A stretch of DNA of 44,079 bases from an uncultured Bacteroidia bacterium (GTDB lineage: Bacteria; Bacteroidota; Bacteroidia; NS11-12g; UBA9320), in the NCBI GenBank assembly GCA_905478335.1, contig CAJQIC010000031.1:1-44079 (forward strand), given 5' to 3'. A model generated the notes under the pieces. That model was given only the letters and a program-made list of their open reading frames with translations. It searched no databases and was not told where the DNA came from. Positions 12,062 through 17,066 of this stretch are shown piece by piece (position 1 is the first letter of the stretch; each line of letters starts with the position of its first letter). The translations under genes and the position numbers were made by a program.

Positions 12062-12099
12062 TTAAAAGCAAAAAGCTACAGCCTAAAAGACTGTAGCTT
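12062..12099 (-). terminator. Intrinsic terminator of the TonB receptor gene
   Basis: Minus strand: AAGCTACAG and CTGTAGCTT form a perfect 9-bp stem around a 9-nt loop, followed by TTTTTGCTTTTAAT. It lies about 25 bases after the stop of the receptor. Confidence 0.9.
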
Positions 12100-12123: not shown

Positions 12124-14997
12124 TTAGATCTTGTATTTAAGTCCGAGACTCCATCGAACTCCAGCGTTATTGCCTGAATAAATGTACTCTTGTCCTGCGT
12201 ATTCATGTACCATTCTTACACGCGGATTTAAAATGTTTTTGATAGATGCGGTCAATTGGAATTTCTTGCCCAGTGATTTAAACAGGGTCACATCTAAAGA
12301 TGGACGTGGCATCTCATATACATCAGGTAAATCACCTTGACTCACTAAAGCAAGTCGCTTTCCAAACATATTGAAACTCACATTGGCAGAAAATGTATTT
12401 GAATCATTTTCAAAATTCAGAAATGAGTTAAAAATATATGGCGATTGACTGTACATTGGACGTGTTTCAGATGCGTTTTCGTCAATCTCTTTACGCACAG
12501 CGTACTCAAGGCTATCCACTTTTACTTGACTCTTAATTAATGAACCATTTAACCCCCATTTAATATTCTCCAAACGGTAAGAGATAAATGACAAGTTCTG
12601 CACAAACTCCAACTCAACTCCATATAAGGTTGCTTGACCTACATTTTTATAGGTAATCTCTGTATTGGCTGCTTTAGGGTTTTGCGTTTGTTCAATTGGG
12701 TTATCGAATGTTTTATAGAAGCCAGAAAGCGAGAAGCTTTTCCCTCTACTTGGATACAGCTCGTATCGCACATCGAAGTTCTGAATTAACGTTCGTTTCA
12801 ACTCTGGATTACCGATCAAAACATAATCTCCTGTAAAGAAGAAAGATGGGAATGGAGCCAATTCTCTAAACGTTGGTCTTGCCAGTGTTTGAGAAAAACC
12901 AAAACGTAAGTTACCGATTCTCCTAGTGGTTGGATCATCTTTTTCCATCACCTTATCGATAAAGTTATAGGTAAAGTTTAAGGACGGTAGTAAATCTACA
13001 TTATCTAAAACACCATCTTGCTCTGACTCTAATAAGGATTCAACCAATACGTTGGTTGTTTCTACTCGAAGTCCACCAGTAAAATTCCATTTCTTATTAA
13101 TAATTGGCGTATTGATTTGAGCGAAACCAGCCATTACAGACTGTTGACCGTTGTAACTGTTTTTAGCATTACCTCTAGGGTGACCTTTTACATAGGTATA
13201 AGAATTAGGGCTTTCTGTTGGCCAAGATTCTACCGCCATGTTTTCTGGAGCGAAGTAGGCGTCAATATCGCCATTAAAATCTGTGACTTCATTATAATCA
13301 AACCTCGTTTCTCTAAACTCTCTATTTTTATACAAGTAAGAAAAGCCTGTTTTGAATTCTGACTTTTTATTGAATCGACGCTTTAGCGGAACAATTAAGT
13401 ACGCTCTATTGTCCCAGTTCAATTCGTTCATTTGGCGATAGTAACGTGCTGGGGTATTGTAAGCCGCTTTGTTTATTGCGTAGGTTGTATCTCCGCTGTC
13501 AACCACGTAGTCGTAGGCGAAAAATCTCAAATCCGGTTCGTCTTGTTGCGAAAACGTTTGAGAAGAAACCCAAATTAGACGGATCGTTTTATCATCCTTA
13601 CCCATAATTTGATGTTCTCCTTTTAACTGAACATTGGTCAATGTACGTTGCAAATATTGTAACGTTTGAGAATTAAAAATTCGGTCTTCCGAAAGCGGTC
13701 CGTCTTCAGCCCATTGGCCAGATAACAACCGAGTAATTTTCTCACCACTTTGATTACGCATAACGTTTAAGCCAATCTTATTGCTCGAGTTAATCTTATA
13801 ATTGAAATTTCCAAACAGTCCGGTTACCACTCTGTCGTTTGATCTTGAGTCATGCAACGCAAATTGTGGATTTAAATCAGTAGAAGAAACAGCGTTAAAT
13901 CTTCCAATTTCGCCATAATTATAAAAACTAAAACTTCTTCTATAACTGGCACCGAAAAGGTAGCCAAAAGGTCTGTTTTTAATCTTCTTTTGATCACCAA
14001 AACTTAATGAATAGCTTTGATTCACACCACCTGTTGTTGTTCTTACCGCATTATCAGTTCCAAAGCTTTTAGAAACAGCAGCTAACTTGCTGTTGTCTGC
14101 TCCTGGTGTGGGATTAACGTTAGGAACATCACCTTCAGCTGCCAAGGTAGGCATGGCTCTAAATCCATTGTCAAAACCCAAAAAGTCTGTTGAACTGCCG
14201 GTATATGTTATAAAGTTATTATTAAATAATGCCTGGGAATTACCTCCTACAGAAGCGCTAAAACTCAACGACATGGAATCTGGAAATTCTTTTGTCGCGA
14301 TATTGATTAAACCACCTGAAAAATCTCCCGGCAATTCAGGCATGAAGGTTTTAAACACTTGTAGGTTACTTATGATGTTGCTTGGAAATAAATCCATCTG
14401 AACAGAGTTTCTATCAGGATCTAAACTTGGCACTTCACAAGAATTCAATACCGTCTTACTGTATCGATCGCCTAAACCTCTTACAGAAACATATCGTCCT
14501 CCTTCAACACTTACGCCTGTAACACGCTTCAAAGCGTCTCCAGCCGAAGTAGCTTGTTGTTTAGTCATTTGCTCTTTCCCGATAGCGCTCATCACAACTT
14601 TTTGCTTTGCCATCAGAGATAATATTTCGTCATCTCCTTCTGCCTTCCTTCTGCGCAAAGAAATATCCGCAGTACCTAGTGTACTGGCTTCGCCGTATCC
14701 CATTTTTGCATTGACAATGGTCACACTACCTTCTGAAACTTTAATGTTTGTAAAGGTTTTACTATTAAATGTTAAGTGTGTTATTTCAATCGTGTAGACG
14801 CCTGGTTCAATCTCAATGGTATATACACCATCTAAGTCGGTAATTGTTCCTGTTTCACTTCCAGCAACTTTAACAAAAGCTTCTAACACGGCTTCGCCGT
14901 CTTCTTGCTGTGTAACGGTGCCTCTAATGGTACCTGTTTGTCCGTAGCTTAGCAGTCCTAACAATACTAAGCTCAGCGTAAAAATTCCTTGTTTCAT
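12124..14997 (-). CDS. TonB-dependent outer-membrane receptor with N-terminal carboxypeptidase-regulatory domain
   Basis: 957 residues. Signal peptide MKQGIFTLSLVLLGLLSYGQ; CarboxypepD_reg-like/DUF4480-type beta-sandwich (about 22-105, TGTIRGTVTQQEDGEAV..); plug domain (about 125-240, with KQQATSAGDALKRVTGVSVEGG and YVSVRGLGDRYSKTVLN); then a 22-strand barrel to a C-terminal RWSLGLKYKI ending in an aromatic-rich strand. It is the distal gene behind the beta-helix lipoprotein, 106 bp away with an 11-12-bp hairpin between. No SusD partner is present, so a non-glycan substrate is more likely; the upstream direct repeats suggest a two-component signal such as phosphate. The ligand itself is unknown. 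Confidence 0.9.
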   Translation of the reverse strand: MKQGIFTLSLVLLGLLSYGQTGTIRGTVTQQEDGEAVLEAFVKVAGSETGTITDLDGVYTIEIEPGVYTIEITHLTFNSKTFTNIKVSEGSVTIVNAKMGYGEASTLGTADISLRRRKAEGDDEILSLMAKQKVVMSAIGKEQMTKQQATSAGDALKRVTGVSVEGGRYVSVRGLGDRYSKTVLNSCEVPSLDPDRNSVQMDLFPSNIISNLQVFKTFMPELPGDFSGGLINIATKEFPDSMSLSFSASVGGNSQALFNNNFITYTGSSTDFLGFDNGFRAMPTLAAEGDVPNVNPTPGADNSKLAAVSKSFGTDNAVRTTTGGVNQSYSLSFGDQKKIKNRPFGYLFGASYRRSFSFYNYGEIGRFNAVSSTDLNPQFALHDSRSNDRVVTGLFGNFNYKINSSNKIGLNVMRNQSGEKITRLLSGQWAEDGPLSEDRIFNSQTLQYLQRTLTNVQLKGEHQIMGKDDKTIRLIWVSSQTFSQQDEPDLRFFAYDYVVDSGDTTYAINKAAYNTPARYYRQMNELNWDNRAYLIVPLKRRFNKKSEFKTGFSYLYKNREFRETRFDYNEVTDFNGDIDAYFAPENMAVESWPTESPNSYTYVKGHPRGNAKNSYNGQQSVMAGFAQINTPIINKKWNFTGGLRVETTNVLVESLLESEQDGVLDNVDLLPSLNFTYNFIDKVMEKDDPTTRRIGNLRFGFSQTLARPTFRELAPFPSFFFTGDYVLIGNPELKRTLIQNFDVRYELYPSRGKSFSLSGFYKTFDNPIEQTQNPKAANTEITYKNVGQATLYGVELEFVQNLSFISYRLENIKWGLNGSLIKSQVKVDSLEYAVRKEIDENASETRPMYSQSPYIFNSFLNFENDSNTFSANVSFNMFGKRLALVSQGDLPDVYEMPRPSLDVTLFKSLGKKFQLTASIKNILNPRVRMVHEYAGQEYIYSGNNAGVRWSLGLKYKI

Positions 14998-15040: not shown

Positions 15041-15071
15041 ATGCAACCCCAGAAAATCACTGGGATTGCAT
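15041..15071 (-). terminator. Intercistronic hairpin (attenuator or 3' stabiliser) between lipoprotein and TonB receptor
   Basis: 15041-15052 and 15060-15071 pair over 12 bp with a 7-nt loop. Read as minus-strand RNA, every position pairs (one G-U); on the plus strand that position is a C-A mismatch, so the structure belongs to the minus transcript. TTTTAATT follows. It could end or dampen transcription between the two genes. Confidence 0.7.
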
Positions 15072-15103: not shown

Positions 15104-16489
15104 TTATTTGATAAGACCGTCTTTATCAGTCTTTGTCCAACCTTTTATCCAAGCATCTTTTCCTGGCTCAAAAGCACCTTTGTATGCAACGTTTTCTATG
15201 AATGCGTCTCCTGAAAGTCCTGTAGCAGTTACATCATTGGTCGGCACACCTTTTTCTAGTCCTGGATTACCAACCGTATTCCCAGATGAATTTGCAGTAC
15301 CGTTTAAATTGACGTCATTAAGGTCTGTGTCTTCGCTTGCAGAAACAATGATTTTGTCAGCATCGTCGCCAGCAACCATGTAGAAGATATTGTCGACTAC
15401 TTTTAAGTTACCTGCGTCAAATCTTTTCTTCGAATCTTCGCCATCACCAGGTAGGTCTTCGATATCTACCCCTTTATCCCAGTTGTAGAAAATTGAGTTG
15501 TGGTATTCTCCACCTGCATTATCTCTAAACGTAAGTGCTCTTTTACCGCCATTTCCAATGTACGTGCAATTGTAGAACATTGGTGTTGCGTAAGGTTGGG
15601 CATCTTCAGGATCCGTTCCTCCGTCATGCTCTCCACCTCTGTCGCCAGCAGCTGGATCTTGATTTACGAATACAAACTGTGCTCGTCCTCTCCATCCTTC
15701 GTCGTAATCAACGTTATCGTCTGCACAGTAAGAGATACACAGGTTACTTACATTAACTGTGCCTCCAAAAAATTCGATTCCATCATCGTTATTAGCAACA
15801 ATCTCAATATGATGGACGCTAGTTCCTGAACCAACGCCACCTAAAGTCAAACCATTGATTTCATTACCTGCACCGATGTCTGTACCTCCATGACGGATTG
15901 AAATGTATGCCAGGCTTCCTGAATTGTCTGCATCGTTGTCACCTCCGTATAAACCACGGGTTTCGCTAGTAGGTATTCCCTCAATGGCCGATTCACCAGG
16001 AGAGCTGTTTAAGCTTGCATTTCCTAGTACAATTAATCCTCCCCACAAACCACGAGCAGTTGCTGGTATCTGACCACCATCTGTTTCGCTTGTCATGATA
16101 ATCGGTTCCGTTGAAGTTCCTTCGGCCATAATTTTAGCACCTCTTGAAACGATTAACGCAGATGCATTATCGCCCTGACCAGACTTCCCTTTTATCAAGG
16201 TTCCTGGCTCAACTGTTAGTGTTTGACCTGAATTGACGAAAACCAATCCATTCAACACCCAAGTTTTGTCTTTTGTAAAAGTGATGGTTCCGACACCCTC
16301 ACCTCGATCTGTTACCGTCGAAATAGTTTCGATTACATTACCGTCCCCATCTTTAACTGTTGATTCTTCATACATAGTTGTTTTATCTTCTGGTTGTGAA
16401 GGTGTTTCGTCTCCTCCACATGAAGACAACATAGCAGCGCATACAAACATCATGGTACATGCTAAAACGCTTAACTTAGATTTGTTCAT
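15104..16489 (-). CDS. Parallel beta-helix lipoprotein partnered with the TonB receptor
   Basis: 461 residues. Start set at ATG 16489 (MNKSKLSVLACTMM) rather than the upstream TTG at 16519. Signal peptide with lipobox MLSSC, Cys near residue 24, then a Gly/Asp/Glu-rich linker. From about residue 80 it shows the solenoid pattern of right-handed beta-helices: LVFVNSGQTLTVEPGTLIKG, ALIVSRGAKIMAEG, RGLWGGLIVLGNASLN, IEGIPTSETRGLYGG, ISIRHGGTDIGAGNEINGL, DGIEFFGGTVNV. Asp-rich loops (GGDNDADNSG, DEGWRGRAQ) suggest cation binding. I recognise the family only as a recurrent partner of TonB receptors in Bacteroidota. It leads the operon; four 11-bp-spaced direct repeats lie 46-84 bp upstream of its ATG. 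Confidence 0.82.
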   Translation of the reverse strand: MNKSKLSVLACTMMFVCAAMLSSCGGDETPSQPEDKTTMYEESTVKDGDGNVIETISTVTDRGEGVGTITFTKDKTWVLNGLVFVNSGQTLTVEPGTLIKGKSGQGDNASALIVSRGAKIMAEGTSTEPIIMTSETDGGQIPATARGLWGGLIVLGNASLNSSPGESAIEGIPTSETRGLYGGDNDADNSGSLAYISIRHGGTDIGAGNEINGLTLGGVGSGTSVHHIEIVANNDDGIEFFGGTVNVSNLCISYCADDNVDYDEGWRGRAQFVFVNQDPAAGDRGGEHDGGTDPEDAQPYATPMFYNCTYIGNGGKRALTFRDNAGGEYHNSIFYNWDKGVDIEDLPGDGEDSKKRFDAGNLKVVDNIFYMVAGDDADKIIVSASEDTDLNDVNLNGTANSSGNTVGNPGLEKGVPTNDVTATGLSGDAFIENVAYKGAFEPGKDAWIKGWTKTDKDGLIK

Positions 16490-16534
16490 TTTTAATTCTT
16501 TCTTGTTTTGTTGGTACAAACGTCACATGGTTAT

Positions 16535-16573
16535 GTTATGTGAATGTTACCATGAAGTGAAAGAATCGTGAAA
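16535..16573 (-). promoter_or_regulatory. Four direct repeats at 11-bp spacing, PhoB/OmpR-type operator
   Basis: On the minus strand the half-sites are TTTCAC (16568-16573), TTTCAC (16557-16562), GGTAAC (16546-16551) and CATAAC (16535-16540), each 11 bp apart, with unrelated 5-bp spacers. Eleven-bp tandem half-sites are how OmpR/PhoB winged-helix regulators bind as head-to-tail dimers. A degenerate -7-like GACGTTTG sits just downstream (16517-16524), so the repeats take the place of the -33 box, as at activator-dependent promoters. Confidence 0.6.
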
Positions 16574-16634: not shown

Positions 16635-17066
16635 TTACGGAATTAGTTGACTTAATACAAATAAGGATACAATGAACCCTAAAATCGCTAACCAGGTTAG
16701 ATTTTGAACCGAGTTTGACTTTCGTTGAAAGATTCGCTTCAACCAAACATAAAATATGGCTAAACTCGACACCAATAAAATCCAACTAGAATAGGCAAAT
16801 AATAATACAAGGATGGCTAAAAGAAGTATATGAAGACCAATAATCCATTTAACCGCAACGCGCTGATTTAGCTTTTCTGGTTTTAGCCACAAGGCAAGCG
16901 TCAGTACAGAACCAGAGATTAATAGAAGTAACATCGCAAGCAATCCAACTTCGTCCCCTTCAGGCGGTTCAGCCATAAGTTCGATACATATAGGACCTAA
17001 AAACCAAAGCGTAAACACGACATATGTGGTAGACAAGATTTTACGGAGTATGTTCTTTGATATCAC
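16635..17066 (-). CDS. Hypothetical small integral membrane protein
   Basis: 143 residues, GTG start at 17066, about five hydrophobic segments (roughly residues 9-30, 42-60, 74-92, 94-108 and 124-141). There is a short acidic loop MAEPPEGDEVGL after TM1 and a basic stretch KRIFQRKSN before the last segment. No family recognised. It is divergent from the lipoprotein hydrolase at 17154. A TACCTTCG promoter-like box at 17071-17078 lies so close to the GTG that transcription from it would be leaderless, so the box or the start may be wrong. Confidence 0.6.
   Translation of the reverse strand: MISKNILRKILSTTYVVFTLWFLGPICIELMAEPPEGDEVGLLAMLLLLISGSVLTLALWLKPEKLNQRVAVKWIIGLHILLLAILVLLFAYSSWILLVSSLAIFYVWLKRIFQRKSNSVQNLTWLAILGFIVSLFVLSQLIP

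Follow-up and report, generated by a model that had tools for sequence, protein, structure and literature searches.

A candidate PhoB-type Pho box upstream of a beta-helix lipoprotein/TonB receptor operon in an uncultured Bacteroidia bacterium

Pho-box units read CTGTCAT for PhoB of Escherichia coli and are of the TTAACA type in Bacillus subtilis. In the Pho boxes of PhoB and PhoP, tandem 11-nt direct units lie head to tail before phosphate genes and occupy the place of the upstream promoter element. The unit of Streptomyces coelicolor is GTTCACC (PMC4415409). Lipoprotein/TonB pairs regulated by phosphate are likewise of a kind already known. In Flavobacterium johnsoniae the lipoproteins FI and FII and their TBDT partners (PUSIII/PUSIV) are strongly induced by Pi depletion; both lipoproteins are described as having a polygalacturonase-like fold, each is encoded beside a TonB transporter gene, and FII lies within the phoBR cluster (PMC8115612). 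The text of that paper makes no mention of a Pho box or promoter motif, and no published, defined Bacteroidota Pho box was found in the open-access literature searched. In Caulobacter crescentus (ElpS/CC0171) the lipoprotein ElpS is made under phosphate starvation and its gene is paired with a TonB receptor gene, this TonB partner being reported as constitutive; the study remarks on the co-occurrence of ElpS lipoprotein and TonB receptor genes (PMC2996285).

The window analysed here, a stretch of 44,079 nucleotides from an uncultured Bacteroidia bacterium, carries a pair of this arrangement on its minus strand:

15107..16489, minus strand: beta-helix outer-membrane lipoprotein, ElpS/FI-FII-like (461 aa; lipobox SSCGG; ATG at 16489)
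12127..14997, minus strand: TonB-dependent receptor (957 aa), in relatives almost always encoded next to the lipoprotein
15041..15071, minus strand: 12-bp stem-loop in the intergenic gap of the pair
12073..12099, minus strand: terminator-like hairpin (consensus match only)

The first-pass annotation had described a TonB receptor lacking a SusD partner, and the ORF calls agree, no SusD gene adjoining it. The pair thus differs from SusCD/PusCD systems, which have a SusD-type lipoprotein as partner: the lipoprotein here matches no Pfam or NCBIfam model and its AF2 model is a beta-helix (mean pLDDT 90.3). It has no solved relatives by sequence; by fold, weak matches alone were obtained, to beta-helix proteins such as polysaccharide lyases and tailspikes. 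We assign it no function past the fold. As with FI and FII, a beta-helix lipoprotein gene adjoins a TonB receptor gene with no SusD, and as with ElpS the two genes are paired; on these described features the lipoprotein is a putative homologue of FI, FII and ElpS. Unlike FII, the operon lies far from the candidate regulator gene (below), between bipA and a small membrane-protein gene, and ElpS, unlike the present lipoprotein, is proteobacterial and has type II secretion adjoining.

The stem-loop may act as a partial terminator or mRNA stabiliser and could set the ratio of lipoprotein to channel. The genus alignment, inspected by eye, suggests that the stem is kept in G001 and G004 through paired changes (in the latter AGCCCTAG...TTGGGCT). 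The terminator-like hairpin probably closes the transcription unit ahead of bipA. The ORF for the small membrane protein, which lies immediately upstream of the box (16638-16976, minus strand), is conserved in 5/5 genus genomes and lacks any Pfam or NCBIfam match. An MbnP-family protein (PF20243; 6433-7158, minus strand) with a weak match to the MbnP copper-binding equivalog is encoded downstream. A metallophosphoesterase and glycosyltransferase gene pair lies near the operon in three genomes (L040, 9664-11510; L042, 13162-15014; L044, 2107-3950), with a polyphosphate kinase gene also nearby in L040. We take this pair to resemble the PlcP/glycosyltransferase genes for lipid remodelling, which phosphate starvation induces.

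The promoter of the operon contains the following elements:

16568..16573, minus strand: half-site 1, most distal, TTTCAC (TTCAC in 4/5 genus genomes, TTTAC in the fifth)
16557..16562, minus strand: half-site 2, TTTCAC (TTTCA invariant in 5/5 genus genomes)
16546..16551, minus strand: half-site 3, GGTAAC (TAAC unchanged throughout the genus and found in most family promoters)
16535..16540, minus strand: half-site 4, proximal, CATAAC (TAAC unchanged throughout the genus; the two proximal half-sites conserved family-wide)
16517..16524, minus strand: predicted -7 element, GACGTTTG, close to the Bacteroidota TAnnTTTG type

The array (16573-16535) thus holds four units, one per 11 bp, exactly as the first-pass annotation had described them, and the coordinates on the minus strand were confirmed. 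So was its description of a TTTG-like -7 box without a -33 box: GACGTTTG stands at 16524-16517 with its TTTG beginning 14 nt past the proximal half-site, and at the -33 position, 16-25 nt upstream of the -7 element, a TTTG box is absent, the stretch reading TAACATTCAC. By sequence, then, the tandem direct repeats replace the upstream promoter element and keep a fixed register to the downstream one, as in the Pho boxes of PhoB and PhoP. The TTCAC/TTAAC units resemble the B. subtilis unit. They also resemble that of S. coelicolor (PMC4415409). What differs from the known boxes is the Bacteroidota context, with a -7 element of the TAnnTTTG type and the array 14 nt upstream of the TTTG, a regulator that is a candidate only and a genome without pst.

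Taken as a single sequence, without comparison, the half-site pattern is only suggestive. The exact TTTCAC-N5-TTTCAC occurs once in the genome, and its uniqueness is uninformative alone, the reversed control also giving one match. Four TTMAC units with up to three mismatches gave five genome matches against five for the reversed control, a control-level count on which the pattern was set aside, although at two mismatches the array at 16535-16573 was the sole genome match. DTAAC-N6-DTAAC-N14-YTTG with one mismatch (28 matches in this genome against 49 for the control) was noise. The count at three mismatches would favour reading the repeats as AT-rich words that happen to cluster in a promoter, but comparison with relatives has already contradicted that explanation, to the point that we consider it scarcely credible. 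Across five genus genomes 34/57 bases of the element are invariant, against 11/111 directly upstream. Homologues of the lipoprotein were found in 49/58 related genomes, and distant family members keep the two proximal half-sites and the 14-nt gap to TTTG. When T(A/C)AC pairs were counted within 170 bp before the start codon, each lipoprotein promoter of near relatives held on average 0.89 core pairs spaced by 11 bp, against no more than 0.07 for spacings of 8-10 and 12-14 bp; further peaks stood at 22 and 33 bp. A TTG begins at +15 after the proximal core in 22/26 family promoters having a pair, and the commonest TTG offsets in distant promoters (37, 15 and 26) equal 15 plus multiples of 11; the array is therefore in helical register with the promoter. 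Over the whole phylum the 11-bp pair was present in 40/109 orthologous lipoprotein promoters, whereas promoters of unrelated genes at these loci had it in 6/343 cases (p = 1e-21); the box is missing from some lipoprotein promoters. Genus conservation and the sharpness of the peak at 11 bp among orthologous promoters place the array beyond chance, and the strict phase and its independent recovery in other gene sets (below) speak the same way; on these comparisons we regard the four half-sites as a real, evolutionarily conserved element. The phasing and the register to the -7 box also support the first-pass view of tandem OmpR/PhoB-type boxes standing in place of the -33 element.

Exact box searches in relatives led to phosphate loci, with the box at pst, OprP, NptA, PiT and phoB-like genes. 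Examples are:

G007 and G049: box upstream of an OprP-type porin gene and pst genes, the G049 cluster also having phoU and phoBR
G008, G018, G053 and others: box upstream of an OprP-type porin gene and a Na/Pi symporter gene (NptA)
G039 and others: box upstream of a PiT gene

Motif discovery by EM was restricted to phosphate-transport promoters because circularity was to be avoided: only upstream regions of OprP, pst, PiT and NptA genes were used, the porins coming from an unbiased Pfam search. These promoters alone yielded the TTAAC array with its 11-bp period, and the resulting matrix, with lipoprotein promoters absent from its training, ranked the lipoprotein promoters above 463 control promoters from the same loci (AUC 0.75, p = 1e-16). 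Control promoters that did bear a pair belonged mostly to TonB partners, PiT, PhoB-like regulators, NptA and porins. Since phosphate genes were numerous in the control set, the set was divided by homology ahead of the final comparison, after which the 11-bp pair was present in 35/120 phosphate/TonB-type promoters and in 6/343 of the others, the latter being the background level for any spacing. Taken by class, the pair occurred in 17/33 phosphate-transporter promoters and 12/35 promoters of PhoB-like regulators. The stricter DTAACATT-N3-DTAACAYT matched 24 times in 58 genomes (twice for the reversed pattern), and, judged by homology of the gene that follows, 10 or more of the 24 matches precede OprP, NptA or PiT genes. 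The motif thus marks recognised phosphate genes of the lineage; known phosphate genes with a different box, which the first-pass annotation had named as counter-evidence, were looked for, and this was not what we found. Its leading guess of phosphate starvation as the signal is supported by the same comparison, and the phosphate reading of the element is, on this sequence evidence, well supported.

The same gene sets bear on the suggestion that a repressor, or a regulator answering to some other signal such as a metal or a carbon source, uses the array as its conserved operator and controls the TonB system as well. In favour of such an operator, metal or carbon regulation is frequent among TonB receptors; the genes sharing the box are phosphate transporters, and 11-bp head-to-tail repeats upstream of the -7 box and in phase with it fit an OmpR-family activator rather than the palindrome of a dimeric repressor, so that we consider this very improbable. 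Perfect boxes were also seen at other kinds of gene. In four relatives (L332, L333, L340 and L341, from G020, G022, G025 and G026) one lies roughly 142 bp ahead of a peroxiredoxin gene, a possible further member of the regulon, and another lies 43 bp before a gene for a lysine-rich, histone-H1-like small protein of 133-134 aa (L328 and L329, from G019 and G017).

In this 2.78-Mb genome TAACATT-N3-TAAC has exactly two matches, a count that is itself unremarkable because the reversed control gives two as well. The informative point is the place of the second match rather than the number: one match is the lipoprotein promoter, and the other (C58:15318-15333) precedes an OprO/P-type porin gene (PF07396). 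The scan for the motif near phosphate genes of this genome proposed in the first-pass annotation therefore returned the lipoprotein promoter and a porin promoter beside NptA, at the following locus:

G000:C58:14139-17414 (L059): OprO/P-type porin gene, divergent from a gene for a Na/Pi symporter-PhoU fusion

The distance from the oprP array to its likely -7 element differs from that in the lipoprotein promoter, and the NptA gene of this genome has no visible box (matrix score -4.7). The PhoU domain fused to NptA is the only PhoU match of the genome, a separate PhoU protein being absent, and profile searches found neither PiT nor any PstB above cut-off. PstB could thus not serve as a phosphate marker here, and it was because of its absence that pst promoters were examined in relatives; PstB above cut-off is likewise missing in 51/58 of these. 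A canonical Pho system gated by Pst and PhoU (pstSCAB with phoU) is accordingly not what this genome encodes, a setting that is partly precedented, pstS having been found in 26/102 genomes examined, mostly Flavobacterium (PMC8115612). Tentatively, and with rather more doubt than confidence, we suggest that the Pho regulon of the genus might run without PstSCAB, PiT and stand-alone PhoU, Pi being sensed via the NptA-PhoU fusion, or directly by the short two-helix kinase, instead of by a Pst complex.

At 24/80 distant loci (taken from a protein search) a gene for a PhoB-like regulator is found no more than 8 kb from the lipoprotein gene, and at about 18-20 of the 80 it is directly upstream, in divergent orientation in the neighbourhoods inspected; PhoB-like genes adjoining the pair parallel the position of FII in the phoBR cluster. 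At L188, L191, L199 and L214 (about 13000-13730) the same cluster holds a second, very divergent OmpR-type regulator gene on a long tree branch, with an 11-bp pair in its promoter in L191, L199 and L214. The orthologue of the lipoprotein-linked regulators in this genome is G000:C26:24925-25596, which shares 52% identity with one of them and falls within their clade (support 100/99), which excludes both the C45 paralogue of the OmpR family and the PhoB linked to pst in G049 and G037. It has a receiver and a Trans_reg_C domain, its gene has TTAAC-N6-ATAAC upstream, and directly downstream follows a gene for a PhoR-like kinase whose best models, PnpS and phoR_proteo, both score below cut-off. The two best models of the regulator are curated PhoB models, NF053854 and TIGR02154, but at 216.8 and 209.4 bits it stays under their cut-offs (270 and 296.2, respectively), and because of this we call it PhoB-like and do not assign it as PhoB. 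Together with the kinase downstream it is the most likely candidate regulator pair for the box.

Scores below the PhoB cut-offs leave some room for a different OmpR-family two-component system, of a global PhoP/RprY type, in whose larger, non-phosphate regulon the phosphate genes would be one part. A PhoB query has about 15 matches in this genome, a perfect box also stands before the peroxiredoxin gene of four relatives, and PhoP of Riemerella anatipestifer (Flavobacteriales), an OmpR-family protein with hundreds of DAP-seq sites, prefers TTTAACA, similar to the units here, while its sites are interpreted as ArcA-like redox/virulence control rather than as a phosphate regulon and, unlike here, no phosphate role is reported (PMC9603813). 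Such a broad regulon is at odds with the distribution of 11-bp pairs in the same loci, where genes of phosphate type, PhoB-like regulator genes and genes of TonB partners hold nearly all of them (35/120, other genes 6/343), and with only two strict matches in the genome, the second at an OprO/P-type porin gene; we therefore hold it to be unlikely, if less so than a repressor operator. We favour the reading of the element as a PhoB-type Pho box from which a surface lipoprotein and TonB channel for phosphate scavenging would be expressed, to which we give a probability of roughly 0.85; the published phosphate-starvation responses of similar pairs in Flavobacterium and Caulobacter speak for it.

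For this organism we infer binding, activation, the phosphate signal and the substrate along the following lines. When Pi is scarce, a PhoR-like kinase would phosphorylate the OmpR/PhoB-family regulator, which would bind the four direct half-sites, spaced by 11 bp, in head-to-tail order along one DNA face, substituting for the missing -33 element, and recruit RNA polymerase to the GACGTTTG -7 element. One transcription unit would thereby be turned on, the surface beta-helix lipoprotein and the TonB-dependent channel being made together, and the two may capture phosphate or a phosphorus-containing substrate at the cell surface.

A candidate Bacteroidota Pho-box consensus, TTAACATT-N3-TTAAC...N14-TTTG, can be proposed from these promoters, and it would allow sequence-based prediction of phosphate regulons in uncultured members of the phylum. 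The element would also tie a widespread lipoprotein/TonB pair to phosphate acquisition, in a regulon that appears to persist in genomes without a Pst system.
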